Below are positions 7,523 to 32,013 of a stretch of DNA of 40,962 bases, in pieces. A program made the position numbers and the translations under genes. Below the pieces are notes generated by a model. The model searched no databases. It was not told the DNA's origin and was given only the letters and a program-made list of their open reading frames with translations. Where the stretch lies: positions 1-40,962 of the forward strand of contig CANRPT010000008.1 of NCBI GenBank assembly GCA_947632565.1, written 5' to 3'. Positions within the stretch are counted from its first letter, which is position 1. Each line of letters starts with the position of its first letter. The DNA comes from an uncultured Bacilli bacterium (lineage in GTDB: Bacteria; Bacillota_I; Bacilli_A; RF39; UBA660).

Positions 7523-7549
7523 AAGAAAAAATGTTCAAAAAGAACATTT
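7523..7549 (-). terminator. Terminator of the T4SS operon
   Basis: Minus-strand hairpin AAATGTTC-TTTTT-GAACATTT followed by T residues. It overlaps the stop codon of the coupling-protein gene. Confidence 0.85.
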
Positions 7550-9902: not shown

Positions 9903-9917
9903 ATCATTCACTCCCCA

Positions 9918-10652
9918 TTATATTTCATTGACATGATTTCTTTTTCTTTGGAAAATTACATAAGTAACTCCTCCAACACTTAGTATTATACCAATTATTA
10001 CTGCAATGTAAATCATTTTTTTCATAAATTCATTTTCGTAATTGAAAACATATTCATCCTTTTTCAAAGTGATACTAATAGGAGAATTCTCTTGATTTTC
10101 TCGTTTGATATTCCAAGTATAATGATAACCATTTACTTGATTGGCATTATGATTTACGACTTTATGATTTGTTTTCAAATGAATCGTAATTTCATCTAGA
10201 AGAGGATATTCTTGAAAACATAAGTTTTTTAAAGAAGTAGAGATTCTAATTTGTTCTTCTTCTTCCGAAACTTGAAAATATTGATAGCATTTTCGAACAA
10301 GCGAAGAAGAGGAAAAGTTCGTTAACGTAAAATTAGGATAAGATAATCTTTGTCCTAACTGATAAGGATCTGATATTAAAGTATTATCATAATATTCTAC
10401 TCCGTCCAAATAAATACGATCATTTTCATCTACTATCGTATCATAAAAGACAGGATATGGATATTCTCTCGATGCTAATAGTAAATCTCGATAAGATAGT
10501 CCATATTGTACCGTACTATCCCATTTCGTAGAATCGAATTCTAAAAAATTCATTTCTTCTTTTACGGTATCATTATAGATTTCTATATCATAAGTAGCAC
10601 TACATCCAGTCACAAGAAATGATAGAACAAGGAATATGACTAATTTTTTCAT
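9918..10652 (-). CDS. Membrane-anchored lipoprotein of the T4SS operon
   Basis: A 244-residue protein with a lipoprotein signal peptide (lipobox VTGC, Cys17). A beta-rich extracellular region of about 190 residues follows, containing a Cys pair (Cys about 122 and 145). Near the C-terminus is a membrane segment (about 214-234, YIAVIIGIILSVGGVTYVIF) with a basic tail. The VNHNANQVNGYHYTWNI segment resembles LppM-like Firmicute lipoproteins, but the match is weak. Its place between the wall hydrolase and the coupling ATPase suggests a structural or stabilising part of the envelope-spanning complex. GGAGGAG precedes the ATG. Confidence 0.8.
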   Translation of the reverse strand: MKKLVIFLVLSFLVTGCSATYDIEIYNDTVKEEMNFLEFDSTKWDSTVQYGLSYRDLLLASREYPYPVFYDTIVDENDRIYLDGVEYYDNTLISDPYQLGQRLSYPNFTLTNFSSSSLVRKCYQYFQVSEEEEQIRISTSLKNLCFQEYPLLDEITIHLKTNHKVVNHNANQVNGYHYTWNIKRENQENSPISITLKKDEYVFNYENEFMKKMIYIAVIIGIILSVGGVTYVIFQRKRNHVNEI

Positions 10653-10661
10653 TTGCTCCTC

Positions 10662-13319
10662 CTATTCTGGATAATCGGTAACTCTTGGATGATTTTGATA
10701 ATACTCAGACATATCAACTAAATATAAAGATCCTGTACTTTTGAAAGTAATTTCTGTAATACGAACTCCGTTTTTTCCACTACTAGCTTCTGCTACGAGG
10801 TATCCAGTATCCGTTAGTCCAATAATCATTCGGATATGACCAGTCGTACCATTATTGCTGGATGGTTTATTATAAATTAAATCCCCTGGTTGTGCAGTTT
10901 GATCAACGGTACCATAACTCCATGGTCGAGATCTTCCACTATTTCCCCAACCTTGAGCACTATTCGTTTCGTATTGATATCCACCATTATGAATTGCCCA
11001 AGAAACGAAACCAGAACAATCTAATCCATTTAATGGATAATCACTTCGATTGGTAAAAGTACCCCAAACTGGATCTACTCCATAACCCGTGTATTTTCCA
11101 CTAGGATATAATTCGTATGGTAATTTTAGTCCTGTTTCAGAATAGAATCCGGATACTAAAGCAGTAGCTGCTGCAACCACTCCTTCTCGCGTACCAACTC
11201 CTGCTTTTTTCACTTGAGAAAAGATTAATTGGTTGAAAGTATTGGTATCTATATAATTGGTAACAGGTCCCGTAATAATAGAAGCACCTTCGGTTGTGAT
11301 AGGAGACAATACCACACTAAGAGTAACACTATCCGAATAGAAATAAGCTAAAATTTCTTGATACGTTTTTCCCTCATCTGCCATTTGGTAAGATACTAAT
11401 TGGCTCATTCCTTTGGCATGACCTTTCCCATGCGTAATTCTTCCATATTGATTTGGATCACTTAGTATAATCGTATGCTTTTCACCGTTGGGCAATTTCG
11501 TATAAGTAGCTAAATAAGTTCCATCGCTATTTCGGATTGTATCCGGACAATCTTCATCATCATAGCAAAAAGAATCATACATGGCAGCAAATACTTTTCC
11601 ATTTTCATCTAAGAGAATTTCTCCTTCCGTTTCTTGTGTTGCTTGTCTTGCCCTGTCATTGATATTTTGATTAAAATTTTGAGTTGCTGAACTGTTTTGA
11701 ATCGATTTCTGACAGTAATTGGTGGCATTTAAAGCATATGTTCTAGCTGCAACGGCTTGGGCTTTTAAAGCCTCCATTCCTGCCGTAGAATAAGCTTCTC
11801 CTGATACCACTCCAGCAACGTAATCTTCAAAAGGAACAATAAAATTTCCATTTTCATTTTCTACTGTAATTCCGTTTGGACACAAATTAGATGGTCCTTG
11901 ATAGGCAATACTACAAGTTTGACTTGGACCAAGATCTTTATAATATAAATAAATTTGATCTGCCATTTCTTTTATTTTCTCGGTTCTTTCTGGTTCATTT
12001 TTTGGTAAATATTCATCATAATAATCCCCAATAAAAGAATTCACTAAATTCCAATAATAAACAGATTCCTCTTTATTACTGTTATTCCCGATACTTAATG
12101 ACATTTCACTTTCTGGTAACATACTTTTGGCATAATCGTCACTACAAGTGCCATCTTCTGCAAATTGCGGATAATATAGATAGTAACTATAATTTTTTTC
12201 TTCTCCAGATTTTTTCGTAAAAAACGAACCAATAGCTCCCATATCATTTCCTGCAATTAATTCTGGCGTCGAACTATCAAGGTTAGAGCTCTCTGTTAAC
12301 CACCAAAAACTTCTTTCAAATTGGCTTTGATTATCGGCATTGACAGGGATTTCTTGGATTTCATTACTACAGTAACTTCCCGTAGCATTTTTATGTGATT
12401 TATCCAAACTATATTTCTTATTAGTAATTTGCATATTGGCTAAAAGTCTAATTTGCTTCTCCATTTTGGAATAAGGTAATTCTTCTTGGTTTTCTGTTTC
12501 TTCCTCTCCCTTATCAATGGTATCGGTTACAGTCTCCTCATTTCCTGCTAATAAATCATCAATGGAAGAGTTAAAAGTTAAAGTTGCCGTGATTAAATTC
12601 ACATCAATACAAACTTTACCACCACTTTTTCTATTGAGTTCTGTTTGTATTTCTTTTAATTTATTGCGGTAAGATTGTTCTGCTTCTTGTTGGTCAACAG
12701 TAAAGAAATCTACGACTCCATCTACTACTCCGCTAAAGAAATTAATAATTCCACTGGCAAATCCTAATACAATAATAATAATTAAAAAGATAGGAAATAA
12801 AAACATTCCAAAAGAGCATCCAATACTACTCATGAGTGGAATATGATTCTTGATAAAAGCAAATATTTTTCCACCAGTACTTAAATTTTTATTATCTTTT
12901 TTCTTTTTTTTGGAAGAAACTTCAGAATCTCCATTTGCTTTTCCCTCTACTTTTCCATTACCTTGTCCTTCTTGTTGGTCTGAAGTTGGGTTATTTTGAG
13001 AAGTTCCCCTTTTATTTTCATCCTCTGGTAATTCACTACCTCCACCTACTGCTTTATCAGCAATATCAAGTGCTCCAGATTTATTAGTAGCATTAGCTAC
13101 TTTACCTATAAAAGGATTAGCTGTGTTTAATGTTTTAGACCCTGCATTTAATAAAGAATCTCCAGCTTTTGTTTTACTAAATAAATCAACAACTTTGCCA
13201 CCAACTAGTCCAGCATATGCATTAGCACCAGTTTTTAAGGCAGTTGTAGCTGCTTTTTTTGTTGCATCTTGTTCATTTTGTTTTTTTGGTTGTTCCTCTA
13301 AATCATTATTATTCACCAC
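10662..13319 (-). CDS. T4SS-linked wall hydrolase: SpoIID plus NlpC/P60
   Basis: An 885-residue protein. The cytoplasmic N-terminus (1-150) is low in complexity and ends in a Lys run. One membrane segment lies at about 168-190, followed by an amphipathic region with repeated GVVD. The ectodomain has Cys residues and two catalytic modules. A SpoIID-type glycan lytic domain spans about 495-665 (DYVAGVVSGEAYS with Glu508, then EALKAQAVAARTYAL and GHGKGHAKGMSQ-like GKGHAKGMSQ). An NlpC/P60 peptidase spans about 715-865 (LDCSGFVSWAI with Cys768, and GHIRMIIG with His828). Known T4SS hydrolases such as VirB1, TcpG or TraG-type open the wall for the channel, and this is presumably the equivalent. 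Two GTG codons follow AGGTGAG, so the start may be 13319 or 13316. Confidence 0.9.
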   Translation of the reverse strand: MVNNNDLEEQPKKQNEQDATKKAATTALKTGANAYAGLVGGKVVDLFSKTKAGDSLLNAGSKTLNTANPFIGKVANATNKSGALDIADKAVGGGSELPEDENKRGTSQNNPTSDQQEGQGNGKVEGKANGDSEVSSKKKKKDNKNLSTGGKIFAFIKNHIPLMSSIGCSFGMFLFPIFLIIIIVLGFASGIINFFSGVVDGVVDFFTVDQQEAEQSYRNKLKEIQTELNRKSGGKVCIDVNLITATLTFNSSIDDLLAGNEETVTDTIDKGEEETENQEELPYSKMEKQIRLLANMQITNKKYSLDKSHKNATGSYCSNEIQEIPVNADNQSQFERSFWWLTESSNLDSSTPELIAGNDMGAIGSFFTKKSGEEKNYSYYLYYPQFAEDGTCSDDYAKSMLPESEMSLSIGNNSNKEESVYYWNLVNSFIGDYYDEYLPKNEPERTEKIKEMADQIYLYYKDLGPSQTCSIAYQGPSNLCPNGITVENENGNFIVPFEDYVAGVVSGEAYSTAGMEALKAQAVAARTYALNATNYCQKSIQNSSATQNFNQNINDRARQATQETEGEILLDENGKVFAAMYDSFCYDDEDCPDTIRNSDGTYLATYTKLPNGEKHTIILSDPNQYGRITHGKGHAKGMSQLVSYQMADEGKTYQEILAYFYSDSVTLSVVLSPITTEGASIITGPVTNYIDTNTFNQLIFSQVKKAGVGTREGVVAAATALVSGFYSETGLKLPYELYPSGKYTGYGVDPVWGTFTNRSDYPLNGLDCSGFVSWAIHNGGYQYETNSAQGWGNSGRSRPWSYGTVDQTAQPGDLIYNKPSSNNGTTGHIRMIIGLTDTGYLVAEASSGKNGVRITEITFKSTGSLYLVDMSEYYQNHPRVTDYPE

Positions 13320-13348: not shown

Positions 13349-15136
13349 CTATAATCCTCCACCAGATCCAAAAGATTCTAACTCTTCTGGAGTAACAACT
13401 ACATTAATTCTCATACGTCTACTTCCACATACAAACAAAGCTTCTCCTTGAGAATAACGTTTAATACTTTCTTTTTCATTTTCATTTAAATCAATCAATT
13501 TTCCTAAATCATCTACAGCTTGTTTTTTAAGACCCATGACTAGATAATAAGAAGCATTATCAAAGATTGCTTTTCCATGAGTAATTACACCAGGGTCTGC
13601 AAAATCACTTGGTTGTTGAGTAATGATAATAGAACCTGTATTATATTTACGAGCACGTCTTTGTACTTGTGCTAAGAACTCTGCTCCTAAAGCATTACTT
13701 CCAGATAATAACACATGTGCTTCATCCACCATTAATACCGTATTAATCGAAGAATCCAAACATAATCCCCAAGCATATTTTAAGATATTAAAGAATAAAG
13801 CATTTCGAATATTATCAGCAGAATTCATTAATTCTTTGATATTAAAGACGATAAAGTCCGTATTTGGATTTACTGTTGTATGACCATCAAAGTAATATTT
13901 TAATTCTTGCGTTAATGGTCTAATCTTTAGCTCCAATTTTTCCATAATGGTTCTTTCTTGCGTCTTTTCTGTCATCGAAGTAAGTCTTCCACGAATCGTT
14001 GCATAAACATCAGAAAATGTTGGATATTGATTTGCATCATAATTATAAAAGTTACTAGTAAAATCAATTCCAAATCTCTTATAAGTATCTTGTACCACTT
14101 CGCTAAACATAGCTAAAACATCTTCTTCAATCGACGGATCATAATATCTCATAAAACCTTTTAAGAACTGTAAAGTACGAGTTAAAACGGTATATCCTAA
14201 TCCTTCTTTGATTTCTTCTTCATCCGCATCTACTACAATTTGAAGAGGATTTACCATTCCATATTCTCCACCTTTACCAAGGTCAATCGATTCCCCACCA
14301 AAGTTATTAGCCATCTCATGTAATTCATCTTCTGGATCAATGGCTACAATCTGATATCCATTACGAATATGACTTCTTAACAATAATTTTGCAGCTGTTG
14401 ATTTACCACTACCAGAAGTACCTAGCATAATCATATTAGCATTATTTCTGTTATTTTCTTTTTTTACTTGATATAAAAATTGATTAAATAGGATGACTCC
14501 TCCTGAAAAATCTACTCCTAATAAAGTAGAATTACCAGGATCTTTAATACTATCAAAAATAAATGGATACATCGCTGCAAGAGTTGGAGTCGGAATTGGC
14601 GTACCAATTCTATCTTCTACATCTTGCTTTGGAAAAATCGGTACAATTGATTTTAATACTTTTTCTTGTTCAAAACGAAGAGAAACTCCTTTCATTTCCA
14701 TGGCATCTAAATAATTTTTTACATTCATTTTTCTTAACTCTAATTCATCTTTGGTATCAGCTGTTACCATAATATGCATTTGATAATCAAAGATTTTAGA
14801 TTGACTACTAGCAAGCATTGTGATAAAAGATTCTAGCGATTCATAATCCAAACGAATTCTTTCTCGTACAGTATTATCCCTTTCATCCTGATACTTTGTT
14901 CTTAAGTCAGCTATCTGTTTATTAATCATTTTTTGCATGGTAGAAAAAGGAATTGGAATATGCTTTGCAACTACTTTAATTCCAGACATACTGGTTAAAG
15001 AGGATAAATATCCAGGATAAATATATTTTGGATAAGATACAACGGTTAAAATCGTTGCATATTTCCCACTCACCACAAAATCACTTGGATTAAACTGTAA
15101 TCCTTTTGGAGCTACTTCTGATTGAAAAATACTCAT
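13349..15136 (-). CDS. virB4: VirB4-like T4SS ATPase, main (C-terminal) part
   Basis: A 595-residue VirB4/TraE-family ATPase, which energises T4SS assembly and transport at the inner face of the membrane. Walker A is GTSGSGKST (239-247), followed by AIDPEDELHEMANNFGGE. Walker B is LMVDEAHVLLSG (about 468-479), with a later ITQQPSDF arginine-finger-type region. Residues 1-200 correspond to the later half of the VirB4 N-terminal domain. The earlier half is encoded by the preceding gene, whose TGA overlaps this ATG (ATGA at 15133-15136). No separate strong binding site is seen, so translational coupling is likely. Confidence 0.93.
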   Translation of the reverse strand: MSIFQSEVAPKGLQFNPSDFVVSGKYATILTVVSYPKYIYPGYLSSLTSMSGIKVVAKHIPIPFSTMQKMINKQIADLRTKYQDERDNTVRERIRLDYESLESFITMLASSQSKIFDYQMHIMVTADTKDELELRKMNVKNYLDAMEMKGVSLRFEQEKVLKSIVPIFPKQDVEDRIGTPIPTPTLAAMYPFIFDSIKDPGNSTLLGVDFSGGVILFNQFLYQVKKENNRNNANMIMLGTSGSGKSTAAKLLLRSHIRNGYQIVAIDPEDELHEMANNFGGESIDLGKGGEYGMVNPLQIVVDADEEEIKEGLGYTVLTRTLQFLKGFMRYYDPSIEEDVLAMFSEVVQDTYKRFGIDFTSNFYNYDANQYPTFSDVYATIRGRLTSMTEKTQERTIMEKLELKIRPLTQELKYYFDGHTTVNPNTDFIVFNIKELMNSADNIRNALFFNILKYAWGLCLDSSINTVLMVDEAHVLLSGSNALGAEFLAQVQRRARKYNTGSIIITQQPSDFADPGVITHGKAIFDNASYYLVMGLKKQAVDDLGKLIDLNENEKESIKRYSQGEALFVCGSRRMRINVVVTPEELESFGSGGGL

Positions 15137-15678
15137 GAAGGCATCACCGTCCCAAATGTTGTAGTAGACCCACCGTTTAAGAAATTATCTAGAATGATTC
15201 TTAAGTCTTCATTACTAGTTTGACTTGCAATTAGTCCCGCTGTCGAAAGTCCACTAATTAAATTACGTACTTTCTTTTGTAAAAGCTCTACATTTTTTTC
15301 TTTAAAAAGAAGAAAGTACTCCGTATCCACTACGTTATTACTCATAAAATAATTTCCTTTTTGCATATCTTGACTAATTAATTTACGTACTTGTTGATTT
15401 GTTTGATTTTGATAAAGTAATTGTAGATTAGATAGATAAACAGATATATCTACTGGTCTATCTGCCACTACTAACCAAAATTCATAATCAATCGTGTTAT
15501 AAAAATTCTTTAATGCTATCATCACATTTAGCTGTTGATCTTCATCTAAAATAAAGATATTTCTTGGAATAATTTTTACTCCTGATACTTTTTCTTGATT
15601 GGGTAAAATAATCATTCCATTGGTAATGGATTGAATATTAATCCAATCTTCTGTCCATTTACTTATGTTCTGATTCAT
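15133..15678 (-). CDS. VirB4-like protein, N-terminal part (split gene)
   Basis: A 181-residue protein resembling the very N-terminal subdomain of VirB4/TraE-type ATPases. ITNGMIILPNQEKVSGVKIIPRN is followed by a long helix with QQLNVMIALKNFYNTI, then DYEFWLVVADRPVDI. There is no Walker motif. It overlaps the PrgI-like gene by 20 bases at its start and the main ATPase gene by 4 bases at its end. The downstream start has no rival frame linking the two, so this looks like a stable gene split rather than a recent frameshift. An alternative reading is a separate TrsD-like subunit. Confidence 0.78.
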   Translation of the reverse strand: MNQNISKWTEDWINIQSITNGMIILPNQEKVSGVKIIPRNIFILDEDQQLNVMIALKNFYNTIDYEFWLVVADRPVDISVYLSNLQLLYQNQTNQQVRKLISQDMQKGNYFMSNNVVDTEYFLLFKEKNVELLQKKVRNLISGLSTAGLIASQTSNEDLRIILDNFLNGGSTTTFGTVMPS

Positions 15679-15976
15679 CTAGAAAACACCAACCTTTCCA
15701 TATAAATCGATTTCTTCTGGTAAAATACTGGTAGATTTCAGCAATTAATTGTCTCACATTATGATAATAAGCAACTGGTGTTACTAGTAATGCACTAATA
15801 ATACCTGGAGTAATTGCAAGGACTGCAACCCAAGTAATTTGCATTGGCACAACCATTACTAATATTAAGGTAATGGATAACCCTACTACAAAGATAATTA
15901 AATCTAATGGAGTAAAGTATCCAAGTATTAATTGCCCCCTTTTTGTATTTGCTGGAATTAAATAATTTCCATCCAC
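15659..15976 (-). CDS. PrgI/VirB3-like T4SS membrane protein
   Basis: A 105-residue protein with a GTG start at 15976, preceded at some distance by AGGAAAG. Two adjacent membrane segments (about residues 27-45 and 47-68) follow a short N-terminus with the typical PrgI start NYLIPANTKRGQLILGYFTP. The C-terminus is basic and aromatic. PrgI-family proteins are the Gram-positive VirB3 counterparts and lie directly before virB4, as here. Confidence 0.85.
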   Translation of the reverse strand: MDGNYLIPANTKRGQLILGYFTPLDLIIFVVGLSITLILVMVVPMQITWVAVLAITPGIISALLVTPVAYYHNVRQLIAEIYQYFTRRNRFIWKGWCFLDESEHK

Positions 15977-15996: not shown

Positions 15997-17982
15997 CTAT
16001 TTTCCACTAAATCTATCGTTTTGTTCGTTTCTAGCATTTTCACGTTTAGCAGTAGCAATTTGAACAGATAAATCATCAATTTTTCCGTTAACAGAATCTC
16101 TATTAGTAACTTTTAAGCCAATTGCTTCAGCTTCCGCTATATTGGCAGCTAAAATCTTATCTCCACTGAATATTACATTTCCATTACTATCTTTTACTTC
16201 GCCAAATCCTCTACTAATATAGTCATCTTCGTTTCCCTTCAAGATTAATCCCTGGAATCTTTCAGCATCTTCCATAGTAATTTCTTTAAGTCCTTCGGAA
16301 GTCATAATATTAAAGGATGCTTGACCTGCCGCTGCTGCTGCATTTTTACGTGCCATAAAATCTTTATAATTAATAGAACCTGTAACTCCTTCTCCATAAA
16401 CGTCTTCCATTAAAGCATTGCCATTCTTATCTAATAAGAAAGCTTGAGTCCAGTTTTGCTTAACCATTTCTCCACTCATACGGGATTTAATTGTTTCAAG
16501 AGCACTCTTTTGGGCTTCTAATCCTGCAATATTTCTTTTTCCTGCTGCTGCTGCTGTTTCACCAGCAAATAATCCAGTTAAGGTAGATCCAGTTCTACCA
16601 AAGAAAGTAGAACCTGCTGCTCCTGCAGCTAGTGCCCTAGAATTATATTTTGCCATAGCATCCGTTGATGCCTTTAAAAAATCACCTTTAGCACTAGAGG
16701 CTGCATGAGCTCCAGCAATTCCTGCACCTAATCCTCCAAATAATCCGGCACCAACATTTTTTGCTGTATTAAGAAATCCATGTTTTTTTCCTAATGTCTC
16801 ATCAGCAGCTCTACTAGCTTTATACCCTGCAGCAACTCCTCCAGCAATTCCTAATCCTGCCGCAGCCATACCTAGCATTTTTCCAAAAGAACTAGTATTT
16901 TGTAATCCTAAAGCATCACAGATAAATTTAGGCATCTCCATAGCAAAGAATAATAAAGCTACAATAGTAAAAATCAAGACAATAATTGCTATAAGTGGAT
17001 TTGTCGGTGTAAATCCTCCAAATAAATCTGTCCAAACATCAGTGCTTAGTAACATTTGAATAATAAAAACAACTAAATATACAATTCCTAAGTTAATAAA
17101 CAAACTCAACCAAGTGGAAGTTAGCATCTTTACCCATTTGGAAAATGCCCCATCCTTTGATGATTTAGGATCCACATAACTAAGAATAGCAATAGGTGCA
17201 ATTGCTCTTAGAATCAATAATTTAAAAGAACGAATTGCAACATCAATATTAATACCAATCATCACAATTAACATAATTGCACCTACTACTGCAGAAACAA
17301 TAGGAGTATAATCATATGCATAAATATCTGGGTTTGGTAAACATTTTGTATTCACTTCATTAAGAGCATCATCCATCGATGCAAAAGGATTATCTGCCAA
17401 AGTAGGAGTATCAGTAGAAGTACTTCCTGCAACACAATCTTCTGAATTTCGAAGAAAAGCTCGATAAACACTTACTGCTATATTATCTCCTAGTTTACTA
17501 ATATCCATCGTGGTAGAAGCAGCATTGACATCATCCTCTTTTTCTGTAAAAAAATCTCCTGCTGTTGCCTCTCCAATGATTACTCTTGGTAATACTGGTA
17601 GTAAACGATTTTGCAAATCAGTCATTACTGTAAAAAGTAAAGGTAACCCAAGAAACATTAATAATACGGTTACTATTCTAGTTGCTAATTTACCAACCCC
17701 TTGTTCTTTATCATTTACTTTATCAGGATTTACTAAATAACTCATAAAAGAGATTGTTATTTTAAAAAGCATAAAAATTCCTAAAATAACATAAATTCTA
17801 GTTTGCATCTCTTCATAGAGCTTACTCATTTGAAAATTTGCTAAGTGGAATACAGTTTGAAATGCAATTCCTAATAAAAAGTACACAATTCCATCAAGCA
17901 TTGATAAAAAGGAACGAATTGCATCATTGATAATTGATGTTTTATTCCAAAACAGAAGAAAAGATAAACCACCAAAATTCAT
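15997..17982 (-). CDS. VirB6/TrbL-like polytopic T4SS channel protein
   Basis: The start is set at the ATG at 17982, which overlaps the previous stop as TAATG and follows GGAGG; an upstream in-frame ATG is less likely. The 661-residue product has about six to eight membrane segments in residues 15-375. These include a central LLILRAIAPIAILSYVDP loop between long hydrophobic helices, a feature of VirB6/TrbL/TcpH-type channel subunits. The C-terminal 280 residues are Ala/Gly-rich and helical, and probably cytoplasmic. In conjugation systems this protein lines the inner-membrane channel. It sits between the pilin-fusion gene and the PrgI-like gene. Confidence 0.85.
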   Translation of the reverse strand: MNFGGLSFLLFWNKTSIINDAIRSFLSMLDGIVYFLLGIAFQTVFHLANFQMSKLYEEMQTRIYVILGIFMLFKITISFMSYLVNPDKVNDKEQGVGKLATRIVTVLLMFLGLPLLFTVMTDLQNRLLPVLPRVIIGEATAGDFFTEKEDDVNAASTTMDISKLGDNIAVSVYRAFLRNSEDCVAGSTSTDTPTLADNPFASMDDALNEVNTKCLPNPDIYAYDYTPIVSAVVGAIMLIVMIGINIDVAIRSFKLLILRAIAPIAILSYVDPKSSKDGAFSKWVKMLTSTWLSLFINLGIVYLVVFIIQMLLSTDVWTDLFGGFTPTNPLIAIIVLIFTIVALLFFAMEMPKFICDALGLQNTSSFGKMLGMAAAGLGIAGGVAAGYKASRAADETLGKKHGFLNTAKNVGAGLFGGLGAGIAGAHAASSAKGDFLKASTDAMAKYNSRALAAGAAGSTFFGRTGSTLTGLFAGETAAAAGKRNIAGLEAQKSALETIKSRMSGEMVKQNWTQAFLLDKNGNALMEDVYGEGVTGSINYKDFMARKNAAAAAGQASFNIMTSEGLKEITMEDAERFQGLILKGNEDDYISRGFGEVKDSNGNVIFSGDKILAANIAEAEAIGLKVTNRDSVNGKIDDLSVQIATAKRENARNEQNDRFSGK

Positions 17983-19388
17983 TACTTTACGCCTCCAATT
18001 CCACAAGCACTAATATTACTAACTGATAAATCATTAAATACATTTAATATATATATTAAGATGGTTGGAATGAAAAATATTATTACAGCAATAATACATC
18101 TAGTTGTAAATTTTTTTATTGCTTTTTGTAAAGCATCTTTATCATCTTGTAATACCGCTTGTCCAAAATCTAAACTTCCCAAAACAATCACAATAATAGG
18201 TACTGCAATTCTAATCCATCCAAATATTTTATCCAAATAATCGATTAAATCCTTTCCTATAATTCCATCACAATTAACATTTACTTCTCCACCAAGATTC
18301 ATGTCAACATCAATCTTAAAATTATTCATACGATTGAGATAATCATTTATCCATTCATTTATTTCTTTATTTTTTTCCTGCAATTCTGTTAATAATTGCT
18401 CCTGTTCTTCACTAAAAGTAATTCTCTTAGATGCTTCAACCATATGATTTTCAAAATTTAAACTATATTGGCTAAATAATTTACCATCCTCTGCTTTTTT
18501 TTGTACAAATTCATCCATTGTTTTCTTTAAGTCATTATTGCAAAGATTAATATCAAATTGTTCCTGTTCTATTTCATTTTTTAAATCCATTAATGCATCA
18601 TCATTTTGTTTAAATTTTTCATTTAAATTACTAATATATTCTTGGCCTTTTTTTTCTATATCAGTTAAATTTTCCTGTGTTATTCCAGTAGAAGATAATA
18701 TATTTAAAAGTTCTAAATCACTATCTACATTATAAGAATTCATAATATTTTGTAATTGATTTAATTTTTCATTACATACTGTAGAATAATCATTCCCTAT
18801 AGTACCAGTTATTCCATATTCTTTTATGGTCTCTAATCTTTTTGAAACACCATCTTTATTTATAGTTGGAAAATCAGTAGTAATTCTATTAGGAGTATAT
18901 ATTCCTAAAGACCCAGAAAATGAAAGGGCAAATTTACCAGGCTGTTCTACAAAATATAATTCCTTGCATGATAAACTACCTGTATCATCTACTAAATAAT
19001 CATATAAATCGCTTCCCAAATAAATATACTGTGCTACATCAAATACACCAGCATCATACCACTCAAAACTTTCCACAGAATTAGGAATAGCAGTTTTTAG
19101 AGAACCATCTGGATATAAAAACTTAAGGGATTTCGTAGAAGAGTCATTTAATAAAATATAACTGCTATTACTATAACGATTGCTTATACTATCATTTTCA
19201 GTTCGTAAAACATTTCCGGTATTGTAAACACAGTATTGCATATTACTATATTGATCAGGAATATTATCATAATTAACTCCTGGCCAATTTTTATCAGCAG
19301 CATATACGTTTATATCACTTTTTCCATAACATAACATTAAAGTAATCAAAAATAAAAATAATAAACCTCTATGTTTCCTATTTTTCAT
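17982..19388 (-). CDS. Secreted ectodomain fused to a VirB2-like pilin domain
   Basis: A 468-residue protein with a signal peptide (hydrophobic residues 8-22, cleavage likely near YAA-D). The ectodomain has about five Cys residues at 30-200, followed by a long Glu/Lys/Asn-rich coiled-coil-like region at about 230-365. The last 87 residues (from about 382) have two membrane segments with a VLGSLDFGQAVLQDDKDALQ hinge. This closely parallels VMGSIDLGKAVLSSDDKEI in the separate pilin-like protein at 19484-19825, so the end is a VirB2/TrbC-type pilin domain. The combination suggests a pilus-tip or surface-displayed pilin. It leads the T4SS operon, with AAGGAG before the ATG. Confidence 0.82.
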   Translation of the reverse strand: MKNRKHRGLLFLFLITLMLCYGKSDINVYAADKNWPGVNYDNIPDQYSNMQYCVYNTGNVLRTENDSISNRYSNSSYILLNDSSTKSLKFLYPDGSLKTAIPNSVESFEWYDAGVFDVAQYIYLGSDLYDYLVDDTGSLSCKELYFVEQPGKFALSFSGSLGIYTPNRITTDFPTINKDGVSKRLETIKEYGITGTIGNDYSTVCNEKLNQLQNIMNSYNVDSDLELLNILSSTGITQENLTDIEKKGQEYISNLNEKFKQNDDALMDLKNEIEQEQFDINLCNNDLKKTMDEFVQKKAEDGKLFSQYSLNFENHMVEASKRITFSEEQEQLLTELQEKNKEINEWINDYLNRMNNFKIDVDMNLGGEVNVNCDGIIGKDLIDYLDKIFGWIRIAVPIIVIVLGSLDFGQAVLQDDKDALQKAIKKFTTRCIIAVIIFFIPTILIYILNVFNDLSVSNISACGIGGVK

Positions 19389-19420: not shown

Positions 19421-19435
19421 ATTATAATTATAACA
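19421..19435 (-). promoter_or_regulatory. Extended -10 promoter of the T4SS operon
   Basis: TGTTATAAT followed by a second overlapping TATAAT on the minus strand, about 35 bases before the ATG at 19388 and just after a strong terminator. Confidence 0.6.
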
Positions 19436-19473
19436 CAAAAAAAATAATAGCAAAATATTATTTTGCTATTATT
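19436..19473 (-). terminator. Strong terminator after the VirB2-like pilin gene
   Basis: Perfect 14-bp minus-strand stem, AATAATAGCAAAAT and ATTTTGCTATTATT with a 3-base loop, followed by eight T residues. It isolates the pilin gene from the T4SS operon behind it. Confidence 0.92.
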
Positions 19474-19483
19474 TCAAATTTAA

Positions 19484-19825
19484 TTATTTTTTATCATATT
19501 CTTCATTCCAACAAGCTCTCCAATCGTTGGCACCAAAAGTATCTGCATCATTATCACCTTTTGCAAATAGTCCCATTAATAGAGTTACAATTGTTGTAAC
19601 AAAGAATACTGCTACAGCAGCAATTGCTCTTTTAACTAATTTACTAGTAGCTCCTTTAATTTCCTTATCATCACTAGATAAAACAGCTTTTCCTAAGTCA
19701 ATAGAACCCATTACAATTAAAATAATTGGAATTCCAATTTGAATAATTGGTAAAATACCATGTTTTAAAAAGGAAATAAGTGGTTTTAAATTTGGATCAC
19801 AAGCTAAAATTTGCACTAAATTCAT
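19484..19825 (-). CDS. VirB2/TrbC-like pilin-domain protein
   Basis: A 113-residue protein with two membrane segments (about residues 24-42 and 67-88) joined by a short charged hinge, GSIDLGKAVLSSDDKEI. This is the layout of VirB2/TrbC-type pilins of Gram-positive and mollicute conjugation systems. The C-terminus is acidic, with a single Cys105 (Cys9 is near the N-terminus). It has its own near-consensus promoter and an unusually strong terminator, so it is a high-output monocistronic gene, as expected for a major structural subunit. AAGGAGG precedes the ATG. Confidence 0.82.
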   Translation of the reverse strand: MNLVQILACDPNLKPLISFLKHGILPIIQIGIPIILIVMGSIDLGKAVLSSDDKEIKGATSKLVKRAIAAVAVFFVTTIVTLLMGLFAKGDNDADTFGANDWRACWNEEYDKK

Positions 19826-19914: not shown

Positions 19915-20889
19915 TTAATAGTTAAAAATTCCTACTTTGTTTAGTAAATCCTGAAGAATCTCTGTGTTATTTACTCTTTCATCCAGTGGTGGTAGTACCG
20001 CAAATACTTTTAAATTTGCCTCATATTCAAATTGTCTAATATCACTATCAGATAAAAGATTTTGATTCATAATCACCTTTTTACCAGCTAACTTTTCAAA
20101 AGCTTTTCTATCAATCCTCATTAACTTATTTAATTTAAGGGTAGAAGGCTCTACTAAATATAAAACATCTGTACAGATATCTGTTTCATCTGTTCTATTT
20201 AAATCAATTAAAATAACATTAACATCTTTTCTTCTTAGTAATTCATTCGCTAGATTATTTTTATCAATAGAAATCATTTCTTTATCATTGAAATAAACAA
20301 AATCTCTTTTATCTACTTCTATTGCTAAAACACTCTTTCCCATTTCTTTAATAGCATTTTTTAACATATATGTTAGCATGGTAGCTCCAGAATGCTCCGT
20401 TACATTTTTTATTCCCAAGATAAAAGTACTTGTTAAACCATAATTATTAATAATAGAAGTAGCACCTTTATTACTATCAGAATTACTAGCTGGAGCCTGT
20501 GGAACTTCTTCAATTTGATGCAAATGAGCTACATCACGATAAGTATTTGGGTTTGTTAATAAATAATTCACTCCATCTAAATTAGTTGTAAAATTATAAA
20601 TGCCCATAGAAATTAATCTCGATAAAAATTTAGGTGCTAAACATTCCGGAACATCTGGTAGCAACACAATAATCTTTTTTACATCTAAAGACATAGATAA
20701 TTTCTGTAAATTCTTTGCATCTTTATAGTCTTTTAAAGCAGTAAGATCTAAAATCATTCTACCAAAAAAGAAGTTTGAAAACATTTGAACTAATTCATCC
20801 GCTTCAAACACCCCATGAATCGATTTAATAATTTCTATATCTAATTTTGATAATTCATCTTGTCTTTCATTTGATATAATAACGTTCAT
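19915..20889 (-). CDS. tadZ: TadZ/CpaE-like atypical ATPase
   Basis: The ATG at 20889 follows AAAGGAGTGG, giving 324 residues. The N-terminal half (to about 125) has a receiver-like alternating pattern (GRMILDLTAL, KKIIVLLPDVPE). The second half resembles a ParA/MinD-type ATPase: GIKNVTEHSGATMLTYMLKN replaces the usual GGxGKT loop, followed by SVLAIEVDKRDF and VNVILIDLN. The P-loop lysine is missing at its normal place, which is known for some TadZ proteins. TadZ localises the Tad machinery to a cell pole or site. It follows the TadE-like gene and is the last gene of the pilin operon. Confidence 0.78.
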   Translation of the reverse strand: MNVIISNERQDELSKLDIEIIKSIHGVFEADELVQMFSNFFFGRMILDLTALKDYKDAKNLQKLSMSLDVKKIIVLLPDVPECLAPKFLSRLISMGIYNFTTNLDGVNYLLTNPNTYRDVAHLHQIEEVPQAPASNSDSNKGATSIINNYGLTSTFILGIKNVTEHSGATMLTYMLKNAIKEMGKSVLAIEVDKRDFVYFNDKEMISIDKNNLANELLRRKDVNVILIDLNRTDETDICTDVLYLVEPSTLKLNKLMRIDRKAFEKLAGKKVIMNQNLLSDSDIRQFEYEANLKVFAVLPPLDERVNNTEILQDLLNKVGIFNY

Positions 20890-20903
20890 TGTTTTCCACT
20901 CCT

Positions 20904-21422
20904 TTACTTGCAATATTGATCTGCTCTTAAAATAAATTCTCCACTACTACTATGCAAATATGGGGTTTCTCTTGTATAAATTAAAGAAGTTTCCCCTGTT
21001 ACTGTAAATAATCCAGCCGTAAATGGTAATAAATTATTAATAACAGGAATATTAATATCTACAAAAGTATAGATTGTATAATAAGCAGCAATCTCTTCTC
21101 CATCACGAAGCCCATACTTATCAGAAGTAGCTACCTCATAACAGAAAGTACCTGTATCTGTCCTACAAGTATTTAATTGATTTCTTGCACACCATTCGGT
21201 AAACTTATCATTCTGATGATAATTAACTTTCTGCATATATTGAGAAATATCTTCAACGGCTGATTCTGTTAATCCCTCATTCTTCTGAATAATACTTCGA
21301 ATTTCATTTTTTACACGAAATGCTTTTGTATAGTTTACATTCCATGCTAAATATCCATTTAATATTAATAAAAATATGATAATAAACTCTAGGGAAAACA
21401 CTCCACCAATTGCTTCTTTCAT
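20904..21422 (-). CDS. TadE-like pseudopilin
   Basis: A 172-residue protein. Its start, MKEAIGGVFSLEF, looks like a short class-III prepilin leader: cleavage after Gly7 would give V-F-S-L-E with Glu at +5. A hydrophobic helix (residues 10-26) follows. The mature part has Cys78, Cys86, Cys94 and a Cys near the end, and alternates strands, as in TadE/TadF minor pilins. The N-terminal MKEA-x-G is shared with the small pilin encoded just upstream. A prepilin peptidase gene is not in this window. Confidence 0.75.
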   Translation of the reverse strand: MKEAIGGVFSLEFIIIFLLILNGYLAWNVNYTKAFRVKNEIRSIIQKNEGLTESAVEDISQYMQKVNYHQNDKFTEWCARNQLNTCRTDTGTFCYEVATSDKYGLRDGEEIAAYYTIYTFVDINIPVINNLLPFTAGLFTVTGETSLIYTRETPYLHSSSGEFILRADQYCK

Positions 21423-21455
21423 CCAATCACCACTTTTTTATTCTAAGCTCTCTTT

Positions 21456-21629
21456 TTAATCACAATTTCCATCATTATTATTGTCTACACAAGTTTGTCC
21501 AATTGTACCCCATTGGTCTGTAATTACTTTTTGAATCTGTGGCCACATAAACCAGAAAAAGGCAATAATTGCTCCGATAGCGATAATTGTTACAACTGTC
21601 ATATTCATTTCTCCTGTTGCTTCTTTCAT
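21456..21629 (-). CDS. Flp-like small pilin (57 aa)
   Basis: A short gene preceded by GGAGGAG, whose product starts MKEATGEMNMTVVTIIAIGA. After the short charged leader comes a membrane helix (about residues 11-29), then WPQIQKVITDQWGTIGQ and a Cys-containing acidic end, NNNDGNCD. Size, single N-terminal helix and position before a TadE-like gene and tadZ all fit a Tad major pilin. The usual Glu at +5 after the leader Gly is not obvious here, since Glu7 directly follows Gly6, so processing is uncertain. It has its own promoter and so could be expressed highly. Confidence 0.8.
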   Translation of the reverse strand: MKEATGEMNMTVVTIIAIGAIIAFFWFMWPQIQKVITDQWGTIGQTCVDNNNDGNCD

Positions 21630-21660
21630 TGTTTCACTCCTCCTTTATTATTACATTTTT

Positions 21661-21669
21661 ATTATACCA
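21661..21669 (-). promoter_or_regulatory. Extended -10 promoter of the pilin operon
   Basis: TGGTATAAT on the minus strand, 32 bases before the pilin ATG. No clear -35. Confidence 0.6.
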
Positions 21670-21727
21670 TATTTTTAATGGATTACTATCTTTTTTTCAT
21701 CTTTTTACCTTTTTTTACAATTTTTGC

Positions 21728-21751
21728 AAAAAAAAGAAGAAGTTATTCTTC
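21728..21751 (-). terminator. Terminator after the PD-(D/E)XK nuclease gene
   Basis: Minus-strand GAAGAA-TAAC-TTCTTC followed by eight T residues; it contains the stop codon of the nuclease gene. Confidence 0.75.
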
Positions 21752-22690
21752 CATTTTCGCAATTTCTTTGATTTCTTTTAAAGATAATGAGGTATATTGA
21801 GAAATTTTTTGGAAAGAGACATGATCTTCAAGCATTTTTTTGACTAAATTAGTTTTTTCTTGTTTCATACCCTGTTTCATACCTTGTTTCATGCCTTGCT
21901 TCATACCCTGTTTTATACCTTGTTCCATGCCATATTCTTGTCCAACCTCATATCCTTCTTCACGTGCTAAATTATTACGATAGTTTTCTTCAATTAATTC
22001 ATACTCATAAGCCCTTACAATATCTCTTACTCTACTAAAACTGATAATATCCTTTGCTACTTTTTCCAAAATAACATCTCCTTTAGTTAACTCAATTAAT
22101 TCTTCTTCCTTTTCTAACAGTAAGATTAATAAAGCCTTTTCGAATCTACTTAACTTTTCTTTATTATAATACTTATTGTTAACAAAAGCTAGATTTAATT
22201 CTACTTTTATGATATTTTCTTCCCCCACATCTAAATTCTGATCCCATAGTTTCATTTTTACCATTAAACCACTTGTCAATCTTTTGGTTTTATTGATTGC
22301 GATTTGATATAATATCTCATCTAATTCTTTTTTCCCAGGTCTTGTATATTCTTGCCAAATCATTCCTGCAAAATGGGCTTGATTACGAATGAGTAATGCA
22401 TTAGTGATACTACTATTTGCTTCAATATTAATATCATATTTATCTACTTGGAAATATAAATCCATTCTACTAGCTTTCATTTCTATGTGATTTGGTGGTA
22501 ATTCGATATTTTTAAATTCTCCCTTTTCTATCTGTTCTTTTGATAAAGGCAAAATTTTTTCTAAGATTAAAGCTAAATAATCCTTATATCTAAGTAAAAT
22601 ATGTTTAAAGACAATATCTGTAATTCCTGGTAAAACTGTTTTATTTTTTAATAATTCTTCATATAGAGTTAATTCTTTAATATCTGTCAT
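21743..22690 (-). CDS. Rpn/PD-(D/E)XK nuclease-family protein
   Basis: A 315-residue protein of the Rpn-like PD-(D/E)XK nuclease (transposase-associated) family. An early FKHILLRYKD motif is followed by the core RMDLYFQVDKYDINIEAN, with Asp77 and Glu90. Asn92 replaces the Lys or Gln usually seen at the third position. The C-terminus carries six GMxQ units and then a helical end with a resolvase-like LKEIKEIAKMEE. Rpn proteins promote recombination in E. coli. The gene has its own promoter and terminator and separates the Tad motor genes from the pilin genes. It is probably an insertion rather than a machine part. Confidence 0.85.
   Translation of the reverse strand: MTDIKELTLYEELLKNKTVLPGITDIVFKHILLRYKDYLALILEKILPLSKEQIEKGEFKNIELPPNHIEMKASRMDLYFQVDKYDINIEANSSITNALLIRNQAHFAGMIWQEYTRPGKKELDEILYQIAINKTKRLTSGLMVKMKLWDQNLDVGEENIIKVELNLAFVNNKYYNKEKLSRFEKALLILLLEKEEELIELTKGDVILEKVAKDIISFSRVRDIVRAYEYELIEENYRNNLAREEGYEVGQEYGMEQGIKQGMKQGMKQGMKQGMKQEKTNLVKKMLEDHVSFQKISQYTSLSLKEIKEIAKMEE
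21861..21932. repeat. 12-bp tandem repeat (six units) inside the nuclease gene
   Basis: Six imperfect 12-base units of the form TGTTTCATACCT read on the plus strand; they encode GMxQ repeats on the minus strand. Repeat length preserves the frame, so unit number could vary between strains. Confidence 0.9.
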
Positions 22691-22731
22691 TTTTTCTCCT
22701 TATATTTCGCTAGTTATCGACAACTAAAGTC

Positions 22732-22740
22732 ACTATATCA
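22732..22740 (-). promoter_or_regulatory. Extended -10 promoter of the nuclease gene
   Basis: TGATATAGT on the minus strand, about 42 bases before the ATG. Confidence 0.5.
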
Positions 22741-22785
22741 GAAACAAAAAAGAAAGTAAAATGACTATTTTTCTGTTTTTAAAAT

Positions 22786-22843
22786 GGAAAAAAGAGCATT
22801 TTTCAAAATACGTTAATAAAATTTTGAAAAATTACTCTTCTTT
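22786..22843 (-). terminator. Large terminator hairpin ending the Tad motor operon
   Basis: A perfect 12-bp inverted repeat (ATTTTTCAAAAT and ATTTTGAAAAAT, 22798-22809 and 22821-22832) is extended outward by an AAGAG/CTCTT pairing. On the minus strand it is followed by a T-rich tract. It lies 30 bases beyond the tadC stop. Confidence 0.85.
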
Positions 22844-22873
22844 TTTCTTGAAAATAGAAAATAGGTACTTTTT

Positions 22874-23659
22874 TTATAAATTTGTAAACATATACATCAT
22901 TGCAAATAAAATTAAAACCATTACTCCACCACCAGTTGCAAATAGCATAATCATCGTTTGATTTTCCATATGTCCTAATCTTTCTTTATACTTCGTTTCT
23001 CTAGCTTTATTTTGTAGATTGGATACTGTTCTAGAAAACATTAATAATCGTTCTTGTTTCCCTTCTTGACTACCTAAACCCAAACGATATAAAAGTCTCA
23101 TCATTCTCATAGAGTCTCTAACTGGATATTGGTTTGCAAAATCCATATAAGGCTGAATACTAGAATCCCCTGCATCAATCTTTGCAATCATTTCTCTTAA
23201 TCCAGGTTTAAATACTTCTGGTGCATCATCAATACTCTTAGCTAAAGCAACAGGTACTGTATAATGCTGAATTAAAATTTCTAGTCCTTTTAAATAGTAC
23301 GGAAGCATGACATCAATATCATGTAGATGTTTTTTATAATAACTTTTTAAGGAATTATAATTTGATTTAAATACAAGATATCCTACTACGATAGACAACA
23401 CAATATTTAAAACATTTAATTCTGTCAAAAATAAGAATAAGAAAATTACGATTACGAAAAATCCTTGTTTTAATCTTTTTTGAAATAAAACTTCTGGATC
23501 CACCTTTTCTCCATATTTCGCTGCCACTAAAAAATCATAATCACTTTCTTTTAATAGATGAAATAAATCATGATTATCTTCAAAAAATTTTCTTCCACTA
23601 ATTACATTATTATAAAGTAACACACCAATAATGATAACTCCTGCAATAATGACTGGCAT
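22874..23659 (-). CDS. tadC: TadC-like platform protein (T2SF domain)
   Basis: A 261-residue inner-membrane protein with an N-terminal helix, a membrane pair at about 70-95, a cytoplasmic T2SF domain (about 115-230, with MLPYYLKGLEILIQHYTVP and a LYRLGLGSQEG segment) and a final membrane helix. TadB and TadC form the platform on which the TadA ATPase drives pilin polymerisation. The ATG overlaps the tadB stop (TAATG at 23657-23661), and the gene ends the operon before a large terminator. Confidence 0.85.
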   Translation of the reverse strand: MPVIIAGVIIIGVLLYNNVISGRKFFEDNHDLFHLLKESDYDFLVAAKYGEKVDPEVLFQKRLKQGFFVIVIFLFLFLTELNVLNIVLSIVVGYLVFKSNYNSLKSYYKKHLHDIDVMLPYYLKGLEILIQHYTVPVALAKSIDDAPEVFKPGLREMIAKIDAGDSSIQPYMDFANQYPVRDSMRMMRLLYRLGLGSQEGKQERLLMFSRTVSNLQNKARETKYKERLGHMENQTMIMLFATGGGVMVLILFAMMYMFTNL

Positions 23660-24552
23660 TATTCCCCACCTACATTCTCGTTATAATATTTTTCCCCTTT
23701 TAATAGGAAATAACTATTGACTAATAAGATAAAATGTAAAATGATATTGACGATAATATTATCTAATAGTGCCATATAGGTTTCACGACCTAATAAATAT
23801 TGAATTAGCATTGCCATTAAATATAACATAACACCATATCTTAAGAATTTCTTATGGAAACTATCACGATCCATTCGATCACGATATACTCCTTCTACTA
23901 ACATATCGATATCTAATTGCATATTTTCTAAGGATTCTCCAGTATCTCTGGCTCCTTCATTCGTTATCTGTAAAAATAATTGATGCATATTTTTTACCAT
24001 GTAGAAAGGATATTTTTCTGACATATAGGTTAATGACTGATCGATAGAACCATTTTCATAAGCCATAGAAATCATCATATTAACATCTTCTAATACAGGA
24101 TTTTCTAGTACTCCTGATGCTACTACTCCTTCTAGTGATTTTACGAAACTTTGGGTTGTAGCAAACTCCATAATCGTATTGGTTGTATAAACTTGAATCT
24201 GTTCGAAAATAAATTCACTATAAATTCTTTTACATCTTAAAAATGCTAAATAAGGAATAGATAAGTCAATAATAATAATATAAATAATGGAAATAATTAA
24301 GTTATAAAAATACATATAAGAAATAACACCTGCAAAGATGGTAAAAATAATTACCTGTGTTGTATATTGCTTTGCAGTATATTCTTTTCCTAACTCTTTT
24401 GTTTTTTCTCTTACCATTTTAAAAGAATAAGGTGCAAATTTATCATAGACAACTCCTACTTGCTCTGTGATAAATTTGTAAACATTTTGTCCCTTATATA
24501 CTCTATAAAAAGCAACGAATAAGGCAATTGCCATAACGATTAAAAATTCCAT
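23659..24552 (-). CDS. tadB: TadB-like platform protein (T2SF domain)
   Basis: A 297-residue inner-membrane protein with an N-terminal helix (1-17), a membrane pair at about 67-105, a T2SF-type cytoplasmic domain (about 115-235, with TTNTIMEFATTQSFVKSLEGV and YMSEKYPFYMVKNMHQLF) and two C-terminal helices. AGGTGAAG precedes the ATG. It is placed between tadA and tadC with 5-base and 1-base junctions, the usual Tad order. Confidence 0.85.
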   Translation of the reverse strand: MEFLIVMAIALFVAFYRVYKGQNVYKFITEQVGVVYDKFAPYSFKMVREKTKELGKEYTAKQYTTQVIIFTIFAGVISYMYFYNLIISIIYIIIIDLSIPYLAFLRCKRIYSEFIFEQIQVYTTNTIMEFATTQSFVKSLEGVVASGVLENPVLEDVNMMISMAYENGSIDQSLTYMSEKYPFYMVKNMHQLFLQITNEGARDTGESLENMQLDIDMLVEGVYRDRMDRDSFHKKFLRYGVMLYLMAMLIQYLLGRETYMALLDNIIVNIILHFILLVNSYFLLKGEKYYNENVGGE

Positions 24553-24557
24553 TTACT

Positions 24558-25892
24558 TCACCTACCTTCTATTGGATTGGATATAGGATTAACGAATTTA
24601 GGAGCTGGATTCACAGTCGATACTGATGGGTTTCCATTCAAGTTAGGATTTGGATTTACGGGTTGTTGCGAAAGACCTACCTGAGGTTTTATAGGATTGA
24701 CATTAGGTGAAACGGTAGGATTAGGAATAGAAGCTGTTTGTTGGGTTAAATTAGGAATAGGCTTCACTCCTCCTGGATTTCCACTATCAGAAGCAGGATT
24801 GTTACTTTCTTCATTGAGTGTATTGATACTTAATCCTTTATCTGCTTGTAAAGGGGCATCCAAATTAATATTTTGTCCTTCCAAATATTCTCTTAAGTGT
24901 TGACTAGGTTCTTTCTTTTTAATTTCCCCTAACATATTTTTTTGATAAATTATATTATATACTGGTTCATTGTTTTCATTGATATAAAACTCTGTAATTT
25001 CATCAATTTCACGATGAAACTTTCCATATTTTTTACTATAGTATGCTTTAATATGTACCCCTAATTGAATATAACGATAGATTGTATTTAAAAATTGATC
25101 TACATCTAAATCTGTTTCCATTAAAGAATACATTCTGTGTGGAATGGCATTCGCTTTATCTGAGTGAATAGTAGATAAAATATTATGTCCTGAGGAAATA
25201 GAATTACGTACTGCACTTACTGCTTCTGCACTACGTACTTCGGAAAGTAAAATCCATTTTGGATTTTGTCTCATACAGGTTACTAATACATCAGAGTAAG
25301 AAGCAATATTATTGGTCTTCATCGCTACAATATCTCGATGCGGATAAATTTTATCTAAGTGAAGTTCTAGGGTATCTTCGATGGTAATAATTTTTTCATC
25401 TTCTTTGGTATGACTTGCCAAGTATTTCACAAACTCTGTTTTACCACTACCCGTTTCTCCACATACCATAATATTACAGTGTCCTTGTACACATTTGATT
25501 AAAAAATCATGAATATCTTTCGTAATATAATCTTCTTCCAATAAATTTTCTTCTTTTAAACGAATCTTTGCTGGTGTTTTACGAATTACTAAAGCAATTC
25601 CATTCGTTGCAATAGAGTCATGAACAAAGTTCATTCTTAATTCAGGACTCTCTGCATCTAAGAAAGGATTTGCATTATTGAAAGAAGTTCCCATTACATT
25701 CGAACACTGAAAAGCAAGTTTTTCTACTACTGCATTGTTGATTTTCTCATTTTCTACTCTTAAGGAACCTTTTGATAAAGAACGAATCCAAATCTGTCCC
25801 CCATTATCGTAAGAAATATCGGTAATATCATCATCATCGATATATTCTTTAAAAGCACCAAAATCTAATTGTTCGAATAAGCTATCTTTCAT
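24558..25892 (-). CDS. tadA: TadA/CpaF-type secretion ATPase
   Basis: A 444-residue hexameric ATPase of the type II/IV secretion family that powers Tad pilus assembly. Walker A is GETGSGKT (145-152). The Asp box is ITIEDTLELHL, Walker B is WILLSEVRSAEA and the His box is GHNILSTIHSDKA. The N-terminal domain (20-130) is of the CpaF type. Beyond about residue 345 there is an added Pro/Asn-rich tail of about 100 residues, unusual for the family and probably disordered. AGGTGA precedes the ATG. Confidence 0.93.
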   Translation of the reverse strand: MKDSLFEQLDFGAFKEYIDDDDITDISYDNGGQIWIRSLSKGSLRVENEKINNAVVEKLAFQCSNVMGTSFNNANPFLDAESPELRMNFVHDSIATNGIALVIRKTPAKIRLKEENLLEEDYITKDIHDFLIKCVQGHCNIMVCGETGSGKTEFVKYLASHTKEDEKIITIEDTLELHLDKIYPHRDIVAMKTNNIASYSDVLVTCMRQNPKWILLSEVRSAEAVSAVRNSISSGHNILSTIHSDKANAIPHRMYSLMETDLDVDQFLNTIYRYIQLGVHIKAYYSKKYGKFHREIDEITEFYINENNEPVYNIIYQKNMLGEIKKKEPSQHLREYLEGQNINLDAPLQADKGLSINTLNEESNNPASDSGNPGGVKPIPNLTQQTASIPNPTVSPNVNPIKPQVGLSQQPVNPNPNLNGNPSVSTVNPAPKFVNPISNPIEGR

Positions 25893-25899
25893 CGTTCAC

Positions 25900-26733: not shown

Positions 26734-26767
26734 ATTCATTCTCCCTTCTTATTTCTATTTTCAAATA

Positions 26768-31896: not shown

Positions 31897-31924
31897 ATCA
31901 TCATCACATCCTATCATTACTATT

Positions 31925-31954
31925 AGTATACCATACATTCTATTATTTTGTTAA
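31925..31954 (-). promoter_or_regulatory. Promoter of the Tad motor operon
   Basis: TTAACA (31954-31949) and TATACT (31930-31925) are 18 bases apart on the minus strand, with an added extended -10 TG. It lies about 29 bases upstream of the ATG at 31896. Confidence 0.7.
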
Positions 31955-31961
31955 GTTTTTT

Positions 31962-31998
31962 AAAGAAAAAAAGGAGGAGTTCATATCCTTTTCTTTTT
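31962..31998 (-). terminator. Terminator after the sortase gene
   Basis: Minus-strand hairpin with arms AAAAGGA and TCCTTTT and a 10-base loop, extended by A/T pairing, followed by a T tract. Confidence 0.65.
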
Positions 31999-32013
31999 TA
32001 AGGTAAAATAATA

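Follow-up and report, generated by a model that had tools for sequence, protein, structure and literature searches.

This locus raises the question of whether a type IV secretion system (T4SS) can contain a pilin that carries a large exposed part of its own. The window analysed here, a stretch of 40,962 nucleotides of contig CANRPT010000008.1 from an uncultured bacterium of the Bacilli order RF39, encodes T4SS genes and two adjacent pilin-like proteins, one short (P0002) and one large (P0001). The C-terminal hairpin of P0001 is homologous to P0002. The parts of the two proteins are as follows.

17982..19388, minus strand: large pilin-domain protein P0001, 468 amino acids, an uninterrupted single open reading frame (ORF) with AAGGAG, read from the window sequence, ahead of its ATG and a position kept in 58 of 80 loci
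19299..19388, minus strand: signal peptide of P0001 (residues 1–30), with a basic n-region, a hydrophobic stretch at 9–21, V-Y-A before the likely cut and an AlphaFold2 helix at 6–20
18897..19238, minus strand: beta-rich ectodomain of P0001 (residues 51–164), from AlphaFold2 strands with an uneven predicted local distance difference test score (pLDDT; block values up to 88)
18324..18857, minus strand: helical ectodomain part of P0001 (residues 178–355), from AlphaFold2 helices (block pLDDT roughly 40–86)
18003..18272, minus strand: pilin-like hairpin of P0001 (residues 373–462) with flanking C373 and C462, from BLASTP, profile and profile–profile comparison, AlphaFold2 and alignment
19484..19825, minus strand: short pilin-like protein P0002, 113 amino acids, the probable major pilin (PF18895, E = 0.0014, below the cut-off)

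Homology and topology of the hairpin

BLASTP aligned P0001 and P0002 with 40% identity across 50 amino acids (E = 4e-11). A profile made from short pilins alone retrieved P0001 at E = 1.3e-20, with the best reversed sequence among approximately 4,500 ORFs at 0.003 in a decoy control. In a profile–profile comparison of 22 short with 22 large hairpins, the probability of a match was 99.8% (E = 2e-28). The pilin profiles gave a probability of 0.3–0.4% against the PrgI-like family of the same loci, which also has two transmembrane helices, so the likeness is not explained by shared hydrophobicity. An earlier note on this DNA had claimed that the C-terminal region of P0001 mirrors the separate pilin-like protein, and the similarity proved stronger than was claimed there. 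Rather than unrelated folds, AlphaFold2 predicted the same hairpin for both proteins, with helices at residues 379–414 and 417–458 in P0001 (block means of pLDDT approximately 87–96 along most of the length) and at 14–50 and 53–89 in P0002 (mostly 81–95).

The topology was assessed across 283 unique proteins carrying the pilin-like domain. A signal-peptide-like hydrophobic N terminus was present in 95 of the 96 N-extended forms versus 9 of the 127 short forms. The loop between the helices contained on average 5.6–6.0 lysine or arginine residues, compared with 0.6–1.6 in the flanks. Cysteines stood on both flanks of the hairpin in 280 proteins, where approximately 66 would be expected from composition, and in an alignment of 100 long forms D407, R430 and P441 were at least 90% invariant alongside C373 and C462. 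Extensions were located chiefly before the hairpin (96 proteins) or behind it (30), and in some proteins on both sides, which fits hairpin termini that both lie outside. The simple reading is that both termini are probably outside and that a disulfide closes the hairpin. A two-transmembrane hairpin with outside termini and a basic cytoplasmic loop, as expected of a T4SS pilin, is predicted from AlphaFold2, the loop charge and the signal peptide.

The full-length AlphaFold2 model of P0001 was weak (mean pLDDT 67.7, predicted template modelling score 0.34). It indicates the beta-rich residues 51–164 and helices at 201–355, with an unreliable mutual arrangement. The ectodomain, described as coiled coil in the earlier note, is thus predicted to be secreted and only partly helical, with a beta-rich domain (residues approximately 51–164) ahead of the helices, and the hairpin has a cysteine on each flank (C373 and C462). 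Sequence homologues of the beta-rich domain were found in three sister genomes only, and a search of the Protein Data Bank (PDB) with the helical part returned generic three-helix matches and nothing more. A match to the transposase family NF033559 was taken as coiled-coil noise. The C terminus reads SNISACGIGGVK and has no LPxTG sorting signal.

A conserved locus with a variable ectodomain

The T4SS genes lie in the order VirD4-like protein, lipoprotein, SpoIID-NlpC/P60 protein, two-piece VirB4, PrgI-like protein, TrbL-like protein, large pilin, short pilin and Tad-like genes:

7548..9911, minus strand: VirD4-like coupling protein (PF02534, E = 2.6e-61; NF045973)
9918..10652, minus strand: lipoprotein, with relatives also behind pilin–enzyme fusions in another genus (sequence comparison)
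10662..13319, minus strand: VirB1-like SpoIID and NlpC/P60 protein, 885 amino acids (PF08486 and PF00877)
13349..15678, minus strand: VirB4 as two genes of 181 and 595 amino acids (NF045975, E = 2.4e-105 for the 595-residue part)
15659..15976, minus strand: PrgI/VirB3-like protein with two transmembrane helices, assigned by position and layout only, in conserved synteny and with no Pfam family
15997..18006, minus strand: TrbL/VirB6-like membrane protein (PF19597 TrbL_4, E = 2.2e-7), with its likely true start ATG at 17980–17982
19434..19474, minus strand: terminator-like element in the spacer of the two pilin genes, with a 15-bp stem and then a run of T (sequence)
19915..26739, minus strand: Tad-like genes for a CpaF-type ATPase, two membrane proteins in the TadB/TadC positions, a CpaB-like SAF protein and a protein in the CpaE position (PF00437, PF08666/RcpC, synteny; TadB, TadC and CpaE by position only)

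The pilin-like genes are encoded together with VirB4, VirB6-like and VirD4-like genes, as expected of T4SS pilins. The TAA stop of P0001 and the ATG of the TrbL-like gene downstream of it overlap (TAATG), an arrangement that suggests coupled translation. Housekeeping genes, read from ORF translations without a family search, stand on both sides of the locus (typA and rplS-like on one, rseP, cdsA and uppS-like on the other), and no PF03432 relaxase was detected in the genome; we therefore take the locus to be a resident chromosomal system and not an integrative and conjugative element. The plasmids and viral contigs searched contained no relative, so an origin from mobile elements is unsupported. 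Since the CpaF-type ATPase also scores as VirB11, it may be the missing VirB11.

Some further features of the locus were observed. The Tad-like genes (CpaF-type ATPase, CpaB-like protein, membrane proteins and DUF5411; 19915–28591) and the T4SS genes form one conserved locus, and the split of VirB4 into genes of 181 and 595 amino acids is maintained throughout the order. Between the Tad-like genes and the gene in the CpaE position, a 315-residue protein (21743–22690) is encoded that has a repeated GMKQ stretch near its C terminus and matches no Pfam family. A protein of 1114 amino acids (28594–32811), with a signal-peptide-like N terminus and without a Pfam family, is encoded beside a gene with a sortase domain, on the upstream side of the Tad-like genes.

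The pilin-like domain was found in 136 of the 146 genomes of the order and a VirB4 orthologue in 126 of the 146, and the two co-occur (Fisher p = 2.4e-8). The named relatives are uncultured gut Bacilli, including Candidatus Scybalousia and Candidatus Faecimonas. Among 80 such loci, 58 kept the order short pilin, second pilin, TrbL; 15 of the others had a single pilin and no TrbL in the locus sequence, owing to a contig edge or a separate location. Samples of the class and phylum beyond the order yielded no credible member: marginal matches came from five small genomes that belong to a different family (f15) and were weak and partial, most of them with stops. On contig 42 of genome G016, a frame of 22,853 amino acids with the pilin domain at its end was an artefact of bases reading N, which yield false giant open frames there (L039, L086–L089). 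A PF18895 match on contig 5 of the genome that contains the window fell in the membrane part of a sulfatase-like protein of 706 amino acids and was set aside as chance.

Divergence within this locus was uneven. Within the genus, sister genomes were 83–97% identical to the window in VirB4, 55–79% in the short pilin and 37–60% in the large hairpin. Ectodomains showed 17–36% identity where a usefully long alignment existed and could otherwise not be aligned, with the hairpin still recognisable. In sister genome G011, VirB4 was 97% identical and the ectodomain unalignable to that of the window. The hairpin closest to that of P0001 occurs in sister genome G014, whose ectodomain fails to align, which argues that hairpin and ectodomain evolve separately. 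The length ahead of the hairpin ranged from almost none up to 575 amino acids. With phmmer, 90 ectodomains fell into 50 clusters; this number overstates the diversity, because the alignment of long forms retains a C-x-Y and a later C-P motif. Judged by these motifs, many ectodomains may be distantly related versions of a single beta domain that evolves fast. Such rapid change of the ectodomain, in a T4SS locus that is itself conserved, is consistent with a part that is exposed and possibly adhesive.

The same variability bears on the explanation that the hairpins of both forms make up a ring, pore or pseudopilus in the membrane, as part of the T4SS channel and not as an extracellular pilus, with the ectodomain bridging the wall or gating the channel. 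Pili are reported to be absent from Gram-positive T4SS (PMC12857230). The order is monoderm, and its wall may be spanned by the ectodomain. A structural bridge should be conserved, yet no part of the locus changes faster than the ectodomain, whose length can shrink to almost nothing. We consider this explanation improbable.

Between the two pilin genes, a terminator-like element as in the window (≤ −7 kcal/mol) was present in 29 of the 52 loci with a measurable spacer, and the mean was −7.3 kcal/mol versus −1.1 in shuffles. A consensus terminator scan missed the 19434–19474 element, probably since the scan demands three G-C pairs. This element hints that the short pilin may be made in excess.

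Hairpin–enzyme fusions elsewhere in the genomes

In several genomes the hairpin is also fused to enzyme domains, on either side of it: NlpC/P60 (L055), YkuD with Big_2 (L067), GDSL (L137, and a weak match ahead of the hairpin in L083), C39 (L098, L103, L109, L111), S11 (L101), alpha/beta hydrolase (L102), CHAP (L104, L115), VanY (L105, L107) and M23 (L119). Four tandem genes at L098:5255-10936 have a signal peptide and the hairpin in common and differ in what their C-terminal domains are, as would be expected if the hairpin served as a cassette for repeated use.

These fusions are an argument for the chief rival explanation, in which the hairpin is a T4SS-derived membrane anchor. The large proteins would then be proteins of the surface or enzymes of the envelope, held in the membrane near the T4SS and never part of a filament. 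Pilin-domain S11, VanY, M23, C39, CHAP and YkuD enzymes are found at scattered chromosomal sites (G064, G020, G076 and others), and the fused enzymes are ordinary wall-remodelling enzymes. The strict D, R and P residues and the cysteine pair are not expected of a plain anchor, nor is the constant slot beside the short pilin and TrbL. We judge the anchor explanation unlikely, although by no means negligible.

In genome G064, three fusion genes are followed within 10–48 bp by relatives of the T4SS-locus lipoprotein (L103:5848-6483, L104:5770-6441 and L107:5651-6244), which ties the scattered fusions to the T4SS locus. Such an arrangement could also mean that the hairpin is a delivery tag and that the fused enzymes are cargo that the T4SS passes to neighbouring cells; the lipoprotein or membrane protein encoded downstream would then act as immunity protein or adaptor. 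Besides the three related partners in G064, this agrees with the peptidoglycan-active and hydrolase domains joined to the hairpin and with the many fusion genes followed within approximately 50 bp by a lipoprotein or membrane-anchored protein of 200–250 amino acids. However, P0001 itself has no enzyme domain, some fusions lack such a partner, and a hydrophobic N terminus also occurs in approximately 40% of the ORFs of 150–300 amino acids in those loci. Delivery of cargo seems to us very improbable. A broader picture would make the pilin hairpin the universal carrier of the T4SS of the whole order, with one resident minor pilin in each locus that bears a hypervariable receptor-binding part and scattered fusions to wall-degrading and other enzymes with partner lipoproteins, as swappable tools displayed or delivered against neighbours; this we regard as doubtful.

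A candidate modular pilin

To the reading of P0001 as a minor, modular pilin in a chromosomal T4SS, with its ectodomain carried outward and possibly serving as tip subunit in the place of VirB5, we give about an even chance. Homology, predicted topology, locus, conservation and ectodomain variability were computed, and we infer filament entry, tip position and binding. Sec would export the N-terminal ectodomain of P0001, and the C-terminal hairpin would remain in the membrane with both ends outside, the basic loop in the cytoplasm and probably a disulfide between the hairpin ends. A packing surface common to this hairpin and the short major pilin would allow entry into the same assembly on the VirB6/TrbL-like platform, perhaps with P0001 first, as the tip subunit, in the role of VirB5 in Gram-negative systems. 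Its expression may be lower than that of the major pilin, as suggested by the intergenic terminator-like hairpin. Contact with a changing target (another bacterium, a host surface or a phage) may be the reason why the ectodomain evolves fast or is exchanged. A shared assembly is supported by the conserved polar, proline and cysteine positions, the fixed slot next to TrbL and the correlation between short and large hairpin distances with the VirB4 distance removed (partial r = 0.52, permutation p = 0.0005, phylogeny not corrected). The T4SS would probably show swappable surface parts to its surroundings.

Several points weigh against this reading. PF18895 (T4SS_pilin) is the main family match: at E ≤ 0.001 it was hit by 23 of the 100 long forms and by 26 of the 74 short ones, with 8.2e-10 as the best value. 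The scores of P0001 (11.9 bits) and P0002 (19.1 bits) are below the gathering score of 26.6. The VirB2 label of the earlier note is consequently weak for the two window proteins and better founded for their relatives, one of which, the long form L111:4604-5875, passes the cut-off with 39.1 bits. TrbC/VirB2 (PF04956) was matched by no member in Pfam scans of the window proteins and the long and short forms, and PDB sequence and fold searches with the hairpin listed generic two-helix matches without VirB2. Several loci have a second pilin nearly without an ectodomain (116–170 amino acids), so a large ectodomain is not required. The mirror-tree correlation with TrbL is similar (0.46), with a permutation that likewise has no correction for phylogeny. 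Some genomes have hairpin fusions distant from the T4SS locus, which a general anchor fits equally well. To our knowledge no filament has been described in this order, which also agrees with the anchor explanation. Apart from these points, a search of a viral fold library found nothing, and the N-methylation family had no match in the Pfam scan of the window proteins.

Among known systems, the modular type IV pilins PilB and PilC of Streptococcus sanguinis (PMC8179133) likewise combine a pilin module with a functional one, which is probably displayed on a filament, is often adhesive and comes in many kinds. In those, the signal peptide is of class III and the pilin module is N-terminal, whereas P0001 has, by its sequence, a Sec-type signal peptide and a C-terminal (in relatives sometimes N-terminal) two-transmembrane hairpin of T4SS type. 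The VirB2-like PF18895 pilins of Patescibacteria also have two transmembrane helices and stand in arrays beside a VirB4 of the mating-pair formation FATA type (MPF-FATA), mostly without a relaxase, in monoderms; as far as the parts of the source consulted go, these are arrays of small proteins and large-ectodomain fusions are not mentioned (PMC12102498). Here, in contrast, the system belongs to an order of Bacilli, with a large variable N-terminal part in one of the slots. VirB5, the tip protein of Gram-negative T4SS, resembles P0001 in being secreted and exposed, in working with VirB6 and in its predicted contact role, and a recent review has it nucleate the pilus on VirB6 (PMC12857230). In P0001 the ectodomain forms one polypeptide with a pilin hairpin, and the VirB5 family had no match in Pfam scans of the window proteins and long forms, so the analogy is functional only. 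LPxTG adhesins such as PrgB are surface contact proteins of Gram-positive T4SS loci as well, although P0001 would be anchored through the pilin-like hairpin instead of an LPxTG signal. Modular type 4 pilins and VirB2-like arrays in Patescibacteria are thus already known. The earlier note knew of no described example of a pilin with a large exposed part; this stands for T4SS pilins in the open-licence literature searched, where we found no description of fusions to large ectodomains, and does not stand for type 4 pili, whose pilins with adhesive modules are well described (PMC8179133).

According to the 2025 review, Gram-positive T4SS have neither VirB2 nor VirB5, with the exception of Patescibacteria (PMC12857230). 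The gut Bacilli order studied here appears to add a second exception, with the pilin-like and VirB5-like roles seemingly joined in one protein. If this is true, modular pilins arose independently in T4SS, and common gut bacteria possess a conserved chromosomal T4SS with variable surface parts. What Gram-positive T4SS touch their targets with would then become testable.
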